Origin: Candidatus Woesearchaeota archaeon
Lineage (GTDB): Archaea; Nanobdellota; Nanobdellia; Woesearchaeales; ARS49
Direction: 5' to 3'
Length of the DNA stretch: 64,000 bases
Assembly (NCBI GenBank): GCA_030750765.1
Contig: JASMHM010000001.1
Coordinates: 220,541-284,540 of the forward strand
The translations under genes were made by a program, and so were the position numbers. This document shows, one piece after another, positions 7,288 to 11,101 of this stretch. The notes beneath the pieces are model-generated. The model saw nothing but the letters and a program-made list of their open reading frames with translations, ran no database searches and was not told where the DNA came from. The first letter of the stretch is position 1, and each line of letters opens with the position of its first letter.

Positions 7288-9480
7288 TTATGCGCCCAAT
7301 TGTCCAGCAGTTAATCCCTTTCTTTCTACTATCTGGCGGATGACTTTGTTCTGGATTTCCATCGGCATGCGTTCAAACATTTGGTCTGACAAGGAGGATG
7401 TGCCTCTGCCTTCTGTTGCAGAACGTAAGTCCGAGCTCCACCCAAGCATCTCTGCCACAGGTAGTTTTGCTTTGACGATGGCAGCATTGCCTTCTTGGCC
7501 GAGGTCTAGGACTTGTCCTCGCTTGTTCATGACTAATTTGGTTAGCTCGCCTGTGTATTCTTGTGGTGCGTCTATCACGTGCACTTGGAATGGTTCGAAG
7601 AGTGTGGGTGATGCTTGCATCATGGCACCTTTAATGCCTTCGCGCATTGCTGGATATATCTGGGCTGGACCTCTATGGATGGCGTCTTCGTGTAGTTTTA
7701 GATCCGTAATGGTTACTTTCATGCCCATGCAGGGTTCTCTTGCGAGCGGGCCTTCGTCCATCACTTGGTGGAAGCCGTCTACTAGCAATTCCATGACTTC
7801 TCCTATTTGGACGATTCCTTTGGTTGCGTCAATGAAGATGTTGTTCTTGTAGACGTTTCGTACTGCTAGTGCTTGGTCGTTGGTGTAACCAACATCTACT
7901 AGCGTGTCTCGTACTGCCATATCCTTTTTCTTAATCTTGCCTTCTGCTAGATCTCCATTTTTGATGAGGTCTTGGACTGCAGGTTCTAGAGGTTCCACTT
8001 TAATGTAGATTCGATTGTGCTTGTTGGGTGTCTTGCCTTCTGTCTCTGGGCTTTCTTTGCCGCAAGTTTCTCTGTACACAACGATCGGAGTACCACTTTT
8101 GATCTCTAATCCTTTTTCTGTGATGATGCGGTTCTCGATAATCTCTAAGTGTAGTTCCCCCATACCGGAGATGAGGTTTTCCCCCGTCTCTTCGTTGATT
8201 TGTACAACTACAGATGGGTCTTCTTTGTTTACTTTCTTGAGCACTTCTACTAGCTTGCTTAAATCTTGTGGTTTTGCAGGACTGATGGACTTAGTGATGA
8301 CTGGCTCAAAGATGTGTTTCAATTCTTCGAAGGGTTGTTCTGCTTCGAAAGTTATGGTTTCGCCTGCATCTCCGCTGATCCCCATCAATGCTAGAACGTT
8401 TCCTGCGGGTACTTCGTTGACTATTTCCGGCTTCACTCCGTTGTACATGAGTACTTGTGCCACTCTTTGGTTTTGTTTCAGCCCATTAAGGTACACCTGG
8501 GTTCCGTCCTTGACTGTTCCGGAATACAATCTTCCTGCGCTGATCTCTCTTCCGGACTTTGGATCGATCAACACTCTTGTGATGATGAAGGCTAGCTTGC
8601 CGTCTTTGTTGCAGCTTTTTAGATCTTTTCCCAACTCACTATCCATCTCGCCTTTCCAGATTCTTGAGATTCGGTATTTTTGTGCTTCGATAGGGTTAGG
8701 TAAGTGCTTGGTGACCATGTCCAGCATGACTTCGAACAAGGGTGCCTTGTCCCAGAACCATTTTTCTCTTTCTTCCTTGTCTTTTTTGTAAGCATTCAGA
8801 ATGTCGGTGAAGGAAACTTTCTTTTTCTGCATGTACGGTATGCTTACAGCCCAGTTTTCTCTGGCGCTGCCAAAGGCTACTGATCCGTCTTGGATGTTGA
8901 CCTTCCATGCTTGTTTGAACTCGTCTTCTGCGATGGCTTCAACTAGTCGGTTGAATTCTAGGATTAGGTTTTGTATTCTTTCTTGGATCTTTTCAGAGGT
9001 GTATTGCATCTCTGTGATCAATCTATCTACTTTGTTGATGAATAGTACTGGCTTTACCCGTTCTCGTAGTGCTTGTTTGAGTACGGTTTCTGTTTGTGGC
9101 ATGATGCCTTCGCTTGCGCATACTAGGACTACAGTTCCGTCGATGGCTCTCATCGCTCTTGTTACGTTTCCGCCAAAGTCTACGTGGCCTGGTGTGTCAA
9201 TAAGATTGATTAGGTATTCTTTTTCTTGATACTCATGGACCATGGACACGTTTGCTGCGTCTACAGTCATCAAACGTTCTTGTTCGTCTGCGTGCTGCCA
9301 TGTTGCCATGCCTGCTTTCAAGTCACCTGCTGCTTCTTCAGACATGTGTCCTGAGGCTGCCAGCAAGTTGTCTGTTAGGGCTGTTTTACCGTGGTGGATG
9401 TGTGCAGAGGTAGCGATGTTTCTGATATTTTCTCTTTCCGTGCTCAGTCGCTTGAGTTTTTCTATCTTTGTTTCAGCCAT
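7288..9480 (-). CDS. fusA: Elongation factor 2 (aEF-2)
   Basis: Translocation GTPase of 730 aa, the normal archaeal length. G1 appears as AHIHHGKTAL, G3 as DTPGHVDFGG and G4 as NKVD. Domain IV carries LHEDAIHRGPAQ, in which the His before RGP is the site of diphthamide modification; diphthine synthase is encoded at 48221. It is the last gene of the rpl7ae operon and overlaps ndk by 8 bp. In many archaea the IF2/eIF5B gene follows ndk at this position, so EF-2 here is a local rearrangement. Confidence 0.97.
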   Translation of the reverse strand: MAETKIEKLKRLSTERENIRNIATSAHIHHGKTALTDNLLAASGHMSEEAAGDLKAGMATWQHADEQERLMTVDAANVSMVHEYQEKEYLINLIDTPGHVDFGGNVTRAMRAIDGTVVLVCASEGIMPQTETVLKQALRERVKPVLFINKVDRLITEMQYTSEKIQERIQNLILEFNRLVEAIAEDEFKQAWKVNIQDGSVAFGSARENWAVSIPYMQKKKVSFTDILNAYKKDKEEREKWFWDKAPLFEVMLDMVTKHLPNPIEAQKYRISRIWKGEMDSELGKDLKSCNKDGKLAFIITRVLIDPKSGREISAGRLYSGTVKDGTQVYLNGLKQNQRVAQVLMYNGVKPEIVNEVPAGNVLALMGISGDAGETITFEAEQPFEELKHIFEPVITKSISPAKPQDLSKLVEVLKKVNKEDPSVVVQINEETGENLISGMGELHLEIIENRIITEKGLEIKSGTPIVVYRETCGKESPETEGKTPNKHNRIYIKVEPLEPAVQDLIKNGDLAEGKIKKKDMAVRDTLVDVGYTNDQALAVRNVYKNNIFIDATKGIVQIGEVMELLVDGFHQVMDEGPLAREPCMGMKVTITDLKLHEDAIHRGPAQIYPAMREGIKGAMMQASPTLFEPFQVHVIDAPQEYTGELTKLVMNKRGQVLDLGQEGNAAIVKAKLPVAEMLGWSSDLRSATEGRGTSSLSDQMFERMPMEIQNKVIRQIVERKGLTAGQLGA

Positions 9481-10227: not shown

Positions 10228-10532
10228 TATCCGCCACGTCCTCCCTTGTTGAGGGGTCGTGCTTCAAATTCTGTCTCTCTTAGGAGTAGGATGTCTTCTT
10301 TTTGTACGGGACCCTTAACGTTTCTTCGTAGGACTTTGTCCTTGTCTCTTCCGTCTAGCACTCTGCACCGTACTTGGGTAGCTTCGCCTCGTGCGCCGGT
10401 TCTTCCTATGATTTCTTCTACTCGGGCAGGGGTTGCTTGGGTAAATCGTACTGCGCCTGCTTCTTTTTGTTCAGGCTTGTCCCTTCTAGTCTTTTTGGGC
10501 TTGACCTCTTCTGGTTGTTCCTTTTCAGCCAT
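10227..10532 (-). CDS. rps28e: Ribosomal protein S28e (eS28)
   Basis: A small-subunit protein of the mRNA exit region. The core from about residue 30 has [20 protein letters not shown] and the conserved RNVKGPVQ; the C-terminus [13 protein letters not shown] is typical. The first 28 residues are a charged Lys/Glu extension lacking in most S28e. Start and stop overlap neighbours by single bases (TAATG), which implies coupled translation. Confidence 0.95.
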
Positions 10533-10993
10533 TATTCTTTCTTGTCTTCCTTAGGTTCTTCTTTCTTCTCTTCCTTTGGCTTCTCTTTCTTTTCTGCCTT
10601 AGGTTCTTCTTTCTTCTCTTCCTTTGGCTTCTCTTTCTTGTCAGCCTTAGGTTTTTCTTCCTTCTTTTCTTCTGCTTCAGGAATGCCTATCTGTGCGATC
10701 AATTTTTCTGCGTCGCCAGCTTCAGTTACGGCTACTGCGCTTGTTGGCACGCCTATGCCTGCTGCCACGCCTAGCTCTTCTTTGTTAACTAAGTTTACGA
10801 GAGGTACTTGTTTCTCTTTTGCTAGGGGACCAATGTGCATAACCACTTCTGGTGGGGATACATCGCTTGCGAGTACAACAAGTTTTGCCACGTCTCGCTC
10901 TAAAGCTTTGGTGACTTCGTTTACTCCTCGCTTGATCTTACCTGTATTTCTGGCTGTTTCAATTGCTTCCAATGCTGCGTCTTTTTGGTCCAT
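10532..10993 (-). CDS. rpl7ae: Ribosomal protein L7Ae with Lys/Glu-rich tail
   Basis: A K-turn-binding protein of the large subunit that also serves box C/D and H/ACA RNPs and RNase P. The core (1-115) has [12 protein letters not shown], the K-turn recognition helix, and [13 protein letters not shown]. The last 40 residues are tandem Lys/Glu/Pro repeats, an unusual extension. A GGAGG ribosome site lies before the ATG. It heads the rpl7ae-rps28e-rpl24e-ndk-fusA operon. The leader upstream carries a candidate K-turn, which suggests translational self-control. Confidence 0.96.
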
Positions 10994-11015: not shown

Positions 11016-11053
11016 ACCCTCGCTCAGGGTGTTTACACCCTTCATCACTAGTA
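11016..11053 (-). promoter_or_regulatory. Candidate L7Ae-binding K-turn in the rpl7ae mRNA leader
   Basis: On the minus strand the leader reads GUGAUGAAGGGUGUAAACA then CCCUGAGCG. A 6-bp stem (11036-11041 with 11026-11031) capped by UAAA is flanked by tandem sheared G.A pairs (G11043.A11024, A11042.G11025) and a 3-nt bulge, which is the K-turn core. The outer stem is weak. The segment ACCCU (11030-11026) can instead pair with AGGGU (11020-11016), giving a mutually exclusive hairpin. L7Ae control of its own leader through K-turns is reported in other archaea; here it is a prediction. Confidence 0.5.
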
Positions 11054-11074
11054 AACTTTCATGCACGCGGCTCC

Positions 11075-11101
11075 TTTATAAACTTTTGCTTAGGTTTATA
11101 G
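11075..11101. promoter_or_regulatory. Divergent TATA boxes for rpl7ae operon and 11124 gene
   Basis: On the minus strand GTTTATAAA (11075-11083) is the TATA box of the ribosomal operon, predicting a start near 11053 and a leader of about 60 nt. On the plus strand TTTATA (11095-11100) is 26 bp before the ATG at 11124, so that gene is probably leaderless. Confidence 0.6.

Follow-up and report, generated by a model that had tools for sequence, protein, structure and literature searches.

A conserved K-turn leader with a competing hairpin upstream of rpl7ae in Woesearchaeota, a candidate L7Ae-responsive switch

Autoregulation of L7Ae through a K-turn in the leader of its own mRNA has already been published. 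The survey of Daume et al. (2017; PMC5539422) covered 121 species and, in the portions of the paper available, reports high leader conservation in Sulfolobales only and names Nanoarchaeum equitans as lacking a Shine-Dalgarno sequence (SD). The leaders described there, from S. acidocaldarius and other archaea, have a K-turn in the l7ae leader with a GAU bulge and tandem G.A pairs, a nearby SD and a TATA-defined leader, all of which recur in the present case. As far as those portions go, the published leaders have a single K-turn, which the SD adjoins or overlaps, whereas in Woesearchaeota an order-wide element stands at the predicted mRNA 5' end and usually comprises two nested K-turns plus a conserved competing UUCU hairpin. 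Our starting point was a single leader in the window, by which we mean the whole 64,000-nucleotide stretch of DNA analyzed, from contig JASMHM010000001.1; coordinates refer to the window, and all features given lie on its minus strand. The accessible part of Huang, Ashraf and Lilley (2019; PMC6298567) describes an L7Ae-operated conformational OFF switch in A. fulgidus, which is also what is predicted here, and the K-turn of the window resembles the A. fulgidus K-turn in its GAU bulge and in an A:U pair at position 3b:3n. The A. fulgidus RNA is described as unstructured without protein, with the SD inside the C-helix; in the window, by contrast, a defined alternative hairpin is predicted for the protein-free RNA, and the K-turn does not include the SD. 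A reading of the window made earlier from its letters alone (the sequence-only reading) had presented a switch with a competing stem as a new detail. On the same partial account, an L7Ae leader K-turn switch had been shown in 2019, so the claim of novelty holds only in part; the free state of the A. fulgidus RNA is unstructured.

Other described RNAs resemble parts of the element. In the available accounts of k-junctions (PMC10573300, PMC4005666) an extra helix is placed on the non-bulged strand, as hairpin 2 of the present leader together with a helix between the 5' strand and the region before the SD would give. Those that have been tested (PMC10573300) are folded by ions and do not respond to L7Ae, whereas the extra helix here competes with the C-helix. 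An engineered duplex containing two K-turns was crystallized with L7Ae (PMC5058347, as described in the accessible text), but that duplex was designed and its K-turns are inverted, whereas the present K-turns are natural, share one orientation, are nested 2 bp apart and belong to an mRNA leader. Pyrococcus abyssi sRkB is described in the available part of PMC3124441 with two L7Ae-bound K-turns in separate stems, not in tandem. A search of the literature on leaders of L7Ae genes, K-turns in tandem or double form, k-junctions and the L7Ae of DPANN archaea, with most subscription journals outside its coverage, returned no natural tandem K-turn, and the combination of a tandem K-turn with a competing hairpin looks new.

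The window comes from a 1.14-Mb archaeal genome. Its rpl7ae gene (L7Ae/eL8; 10993-10532) encodes a 153-residue protein that matches PF01248 (E 1.1e-26) and the group containing A. fulgidus L7Ae, including entry 6q8u (E 1.8e-23). The closest named relative of the window is a Candidatus Woesearchaeota MAG contig, NYZT01000049 (94% identity in L7Ae). The string N-E-x-x-K-x-x-x-R of K-turn-binding residues is present, the residues named in the accessible part of Huang et al. (2019; PMC6298567) being N33, E34, K37 and R41. By open reading frames and Pfam matches, rpl7ae is followed by rps28e (10532-10227), rpl24e (10227-9961), ndk (9964-9473) and aEF-2 (fusA; 9480-7288), the last gene of the series. 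Because stop/start overlaps join all five genes from rpl7ae to the end of aEF-2 at 7288, control by the leader over the whole rpl7ae-fusA operon is plausible on this gene arrangement. The C-terminal end of the window L7Ae (10532-10660) forms a long, repetitive tail rich in K, E and P, and a like stretch matches another open reading frame of the same genome (L002).

The leader of rpl7ae reads UUUACUAGUGAUGAAGGGUGUAAACACCCUGAGCGAGGGUUUCUAUCCUCGAGGAGGACGCU-AUG and is preceded by a TATA box, TTTATAAA, at 11075-11082. The TTTATA motif of this promoter (at 11082) lies 31 nt 5' of the first K-turn helix. Exact TTTATA occurs within 70 nt in 74 of the 107 related leaders with a tandem K-turn described below, and in 62 of those 74 it lies 31-33 nt from the outer C-helix. 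From the usual archaeal TATA-to-start distance, the transcript is predicted to start at about 11052 (11050-11054), and the mRNA would thus begin about at the C-helix. This placement fits the absence of covariation beyond C-helix pair -4, and it sets the predicted start upstream of 11024; a start downstream of that position would, according to the sequence-only reading, have refuted its proposal. A second TATA-like site, TATAAA (11100-11095), lies upstream of the predicted promoter and has a counterpart in the genus mate L016; an earlier transcript start from it is possible.

The K-turn core occupies 11051-11019 and has the standard layout, with a 3-nt bulge followed by tandem G.A/A.G pairs between a C-helix and an NC-helix; it sits in the 5' leader of the gene for L7Ae itself. 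The 5' strand of the C-helix, CUAGU (11047-11051), pairs with GCGAG (11023-11019) through U.G, G-C, an A.G mismatch, U-A and C-G, and the latter strand is also common to hairpin 2. The outer helix of relatives, with its covarying pairs -3 and -4, has this same register. The bulge GAU (L1-L3; 11046-11044) recurs as the inner bulge of 52 of the 107 tandem relatives and as the bulge of the six published l7ae leaders in the accessible part of PMC6298567. The tandem sheared pairs are formed by GA on the bulged strand (11043-11042) and GA on the non-bulged strand (11025-11024), both of which are invariant columns in the alignment A1 described below. Between them lies the NC hairpin AGGGUG-UAAA-CACCCU (11041-11026), with a 6-bp stem (11041-11036/11031-11026), a 3b:3n pair that is A:U, and NC pairs that covary in relatives.

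When the 62-nt window leader was shuffled 5000 times with its dinucleotides preserved, 170 of the shuffles contained a core of this kind (GA, a stem of at least 6 bp, GA); the core is therefore only mildly unusual alone, and conservation must carry the K-turn claim. The window C-helix is weak, with its single mismatch and a probability of 0.01 without protein; in the free leader hairpin 1 and hairpin 2 have probabilities of 0.99 and 0.95, and the K-turn-enforced state lies 2.5 kcal/mol above the minimum free energy (MFE). An A:U pair at 3b:3n, which is also the A. fulgidus type, characterizes K-turns that fold only with protein according to the available text of PMC6298567. The affinity of L7Ae for K-turns is quoted in the literature as pM, and a cost of 2.5 kcal/mol would be little against such binding.

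Conservation was assessed in a sample of 143 rpl7ae leaders from Woesearchaeota MAGs that share the GTDB family or order of the window. Scanning covered 142 leaders; L037 and L039, which start inside the gene, and L137 (73 nt) were dropped. The locator looked for 5' CC-NNU-GA-spacer-N(A/G)U-GA-hairpin-GA-NN-GAGG and also scored variants of this pattern; it identified a tandem K-turn in 107 of the 142 leaders and in 0 of 2840 dinucleotide shuffles; a stricter tandem pattern was present in 93/142 leaders and 96/2840 shuffles. Tandem K-turns occur in 43 of the 50 GTDB families sampled. The outer K-turn, K2, has a CC/GG C-helix and a bulge that is mostly AAU, UGU or UAU. Two spacer pairs, U.U followed by U-A, separate it from the inner K-turn, K1, whose bulge is GAU, AAU or UAU and which is followed by the stem-loop. 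The 35 leaders that fail the locator include the window and the single-K-turn forms.

The locator requires CC, GAGG and an NC stem of at least 3 bp, which biases pairs -1 and -2 of the C-helix as well as NC pairs 4-6; pairs -3 and -4, the spacer pairing and hairpin 2 are outside its selection. Outer C-helix pair -3 is formed in 72 of 107 leaders against 50.1 in permuted rows and pair -4 in 68 against 50.9 (both 0/2000), and pair -5 shows no covariation in the same 107 leaders (47 against 47.3 permuted). The spacer pair adjoining K1 is formed in 105/107 (86.9 permuted, 0/2000). With only one leader per family (43 families), pairs -3 and -4, the spacer pair and hairpin 2 all keep their signals. 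In the 40-row alignment A1, eight of nine pairs vary on both sides, and the covariation score of 0.503 compares with 0.206 for shuffled alignments and at most 0.141 for slid controls; A1 holds 40 of 47 eligible rows, L056, L115, L117, L123, L134, L150 and L155 having been omitted for cleanness. The outer C-helix, the spacer pair and the inner stem covary, and thus the leader is conserved by base-pair covariation across the order, which is the comparison with related leaders that the sequence-only reading had proposed. The K-turn core with 3-nt bulge and 6-bp stem that it had described in the rpl7ae leader is likewise borne out, in the letters themselves and in their order-wide conservation, and conservation across the order indicates that the core is real.

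The window itself appears to be a reduced form. In the window leader, its genus mate L016 and L030, the few close relatives with which this form was compared, GUGAUGA replaces the tandem strand and the 3' strand still reads GA-NC-GAG. These three sequences suggest that the single K-turn of the window is a derived state, in which the outer bulge would have been lost and the old K2 region would continue the C-helix. The competing hairpin is kept in the window. In L021 and L034, of the window's family, one K-turn is gone from both strands together, and in L018, L025 and L032 the spacer between the K-turns appears, by eye, to be 3 or 4 bp and to be lengthened on both strands.

The sequence-only reading had proposed that the K-turn is opposed by a hairpin that pairs ACCCU (11030-11026) with AGGGU (11020-11016). 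That hairpin was rejected: it has a probability of 5e-5 and an energy of -17.7 against an MFE of -24.6, 6.9 kcal/mol above it, and it is unconserved, with at least 4 bp in 44/107 leaders against 50.0 in permuted ones. A competing stem of this general kind does exist, formed by a different and conserved pairing of 11022-11016 with 11011-11005. In this structure, hairpin 2 (11022-11005), CGAGGGU (11022-11016) and AUCCUCG (11011-11005) enclose the loop UUCU (11015-11012) with a probability of 0.95; the CGAGGGU arm lies just 3' of the K-turn and the AUCCUCG arm directly 5' of the SD. Across relatives, pairing with a leader's own downstream segment averages -8.72 kcal/mol against -6.16 for permuted segments (0/2000), and the central GG is paired in the MFE structure of 104 of 107 tandem leaders. 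Since this GG(UA) also supplies the 3' side of the K2 C-helix, that helix and hairpin 2 exclude each other. Of the 107 tandem leaders, 93 have a UUCU, in or near the loop of hairpin 2, at most 32 nt 3' of GAGG, compared with 22% in shuffles; in the window these four nucleotides form precisely that loop. Comparison of the leaders thus shows a K-turn at the predicted mRNA 5' end and a C-helix and a hairpin 2 that compete for the GAGG segment.

We propose that the leader acts as an L7Ae-responsive OFF switch for rpl7ae, a reading to which we assign a probability of roughly 0.66. When L7Ae is scarce, the mRNA would keep hairpin 2 and the SD would be open; L7Ae in excess would capture the K-turn, fix the C-helix and displace hairpin 2. 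In the window, the only leader for which this step is predicted, the freed 3' arm of hairpin 2, UCCUC, would then fold onto the SD (GAGGA) and block initiation, and the coupled genes as far as aEF-2 would be translated less as well. The autoregulation by L7Ae that the sequence-only reading envisaged finds good support in the identity of the gene, the anatomy of the K-turn, its conservation and the precedent published. As a more tentative extension, held at somewhat below even odds, two L7Ae molecules may dock cooperatively on the nested K-turns of most relatives, which the first nucleotides of the mRNA would form, and drive out the conserved UUCU-loop hairpin, giving an OFF switch with a sharp concentration threshold, of which the window with its one K-turn would be a derived version.

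Predicted access to the SD was compared between the two states. The window SD, AGGAGG (11004-10999), is predicted to be sequestered in the K-turn state by a hairpin (11010-10998) that pairs UCCUC (11010-11006) with GAGGA (11002-10998), with a probability of 0.99 when the K-turn is enforced. The unpaired probability of the SD falls from 0.70 in the free leader to 0.34 with the K-turn enforced, and over the coding lengths included it ranges from 0.70 to 0.97 free and from 0.24 to 0.34 enforced. Closure of the SD is predicted in the K-turn state, so the predicted direction in the window is OFF on L7Ae binding. The SD tests in relatives used 106, then 105, of the 107 tandem leaders. In the 105, the drop in access from the free to the K-turn state was 0.151, compared with 0.109 for permuted tails (7/400), a modest effect for which the free state accounts (7/400; 167/400 for the bound state); more than 0.1 of access is lost in 53 leaders and gained in 17. 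In the 24 leaders whose SD is near hairpin 2, the drop of 0.098 was inside the 12 permuted values. The 3' arm of hairpin 2 pairs about equally well with the SD of its own leader (-4.58) and with the SDs of other genomes (-4.56; 2372/5000), a result that gives no specific co-adaptation between arm and SD. The distance from GAGG to the SD ranges from 16 to 95 nt, with one outlier of 0, and is too variable for one simple steric model. An order-wide anti-SD role for the hairpin-2 3' arm was set aside on the SD-region permutation; because co-adaptation of arm and SD is absent and the spacing is variable, SD capture is retained as a prediction for the window only.

These results bear on a simpler possibility, which is that autoregulation is of the plain published type, the bound K-turn itself occluding the ribosome as a roadblock or by SD burial, with hairpin 2 serving some other purpose and sharing nucleotides with the C-helix only incidentally. 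Repression by a K-turn near the SD without a competing hairpin is shown in the accessible parts of Daume et al. (2017) and Huang et al. (2019), no more than about 20 nt separate the window K-turn from the SD, and covariation between the hairpin-2 arm and the SD is absent. However, the central GAGG segment covaries with both its 5' and its 3' partners, an overlap that is unlikely to be incidental across 43 families, and in many relatives the SD lies 40-95 nt 3' of the K-turn, beyond direct occlusion. We therefore regard plain occlusion as rather unlikely, if still a serious candidate. Less probable again is a free state in the form of a three-way junction with k-junction topology, in which the 5' strand CCNRUGAUU pairs around the SD, K1 and hairpin 2 form the arms, and L7Ae breaks the junction. 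At least 5 Watson-Crick pairs between the 5' strand and the segment from the end of hairpin 2 to the start codon are available in 42 of 105 leaders against 27.8 permuted (0/2000; reversed controls negative), the MFE structure of the window pairs UAGUG (11050-11046) with CGCUA (10997-10993), and k-junctions are reported as unresponsive to L7Ae in the available text of PMC10573300. The excess nevertheless amounts to about 14 of 105 leaders, the position of the pairing varies and some matches are merely UACC with an SD-like GGUA; the junction also predicts an SD closed without L7Ae, hence activation, opposite to precedent. The complementarity between the 5' strand and the pre-SD region suggests, at the level of sequence, a third helix in some species.

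Two readings without a cis-acting RNA switch fare worse. The strings RUGAUUNAUGA and CUGA look like the consensus boxes C and D, as if a box C/D-like sRNA lay within the leader or were processed from it. A search of seven relative loci against Rfam 15 at E values up to 1 gave two matches, both far below gathering. Weak C/D matches below threshold were to sR1 (11.2 bits, gathering score 45) and sno_ncR3 (20.9, gathering score 88). Yet what lies between the boxes is a hairpin with covarying pairs instead of a guide, and the element occurs only upstream of rpl7ae in the loci examined, at a fixed distance from the promoter. The box C/D candidate, very improbable in our estimation, was rejected since guide stretches between C, D', C' and D were not found and Rfam 15 at gathering score yields tRNAs alone in the window, with no C/D family among its matches. 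That same fixed spacing from the TATA box could suggest that the conserved letters are a promoter or initiator signal in DNA instead of an RNA structure. Compensatory changes on both strands of three helices led us to reject this reading, which we consider the least credible of all, and it also runs against the matched-looking length changes in L018, L025 and L032 and the matched loss of a K-turn in L021 and L034.

Should the proposed OFF switch be correct, L7Ae feedback would reach deep into the DPANN archaea in a form more elaborate than the published one and would govern L7Ae together with the translation genes coupled to rpl7ae. The leader would be a compact natural protein-controlled riboswitch with clear mutant predictions and a candidate for a new Rfam family, and it would offer a natural case for whether two L7Ae molecules fit on K-turns 2 bp apart.

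The spread of the element was followed with R1, a covariance model of the tandem form, at a threshold of E 0.01 or better. R1 matches 97 of 279 genomes of the phylum, 95 of them within the window's order. Thirty R1 loci were taken, 29 of which are directly upstream of rpl7ae; the remaining one is at a contig edge and has a twin match on another contig of the same genome (G045:C69). At one of the 29 (L161, genome G076) an intact tandem leader precedes an rpl7ae that is missing part of its N-terminal half through an internal deletion, which is either an assembly artefact or real. A search of the window genome gave no R1 match, the window leader included, because R1 models the tandem form; this search is uninformative on other K-turns there. 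The matches outside the order are in two genomes of the same class, G338 and, weakly, G315. G338 has two rpl7ae genes, on contigs C32 and C16, and the leader of the C32 copy (L170, L191) is of the tandem kind usual in the order of the window. This leader may reflect a mis-binned contig or a transfer, mis-binning being suspected because one genome holds two rpl7ae genes. In the order to which G338 belongs, leaders generally have another appearance; 6 of 31 leaders have a single outer-type K-turn followed by GG (2/1550 shuffles) and the other 25 do not fit; all six contain UUCU inside the 24 nt shown, that of L206 lying in coding sequence.
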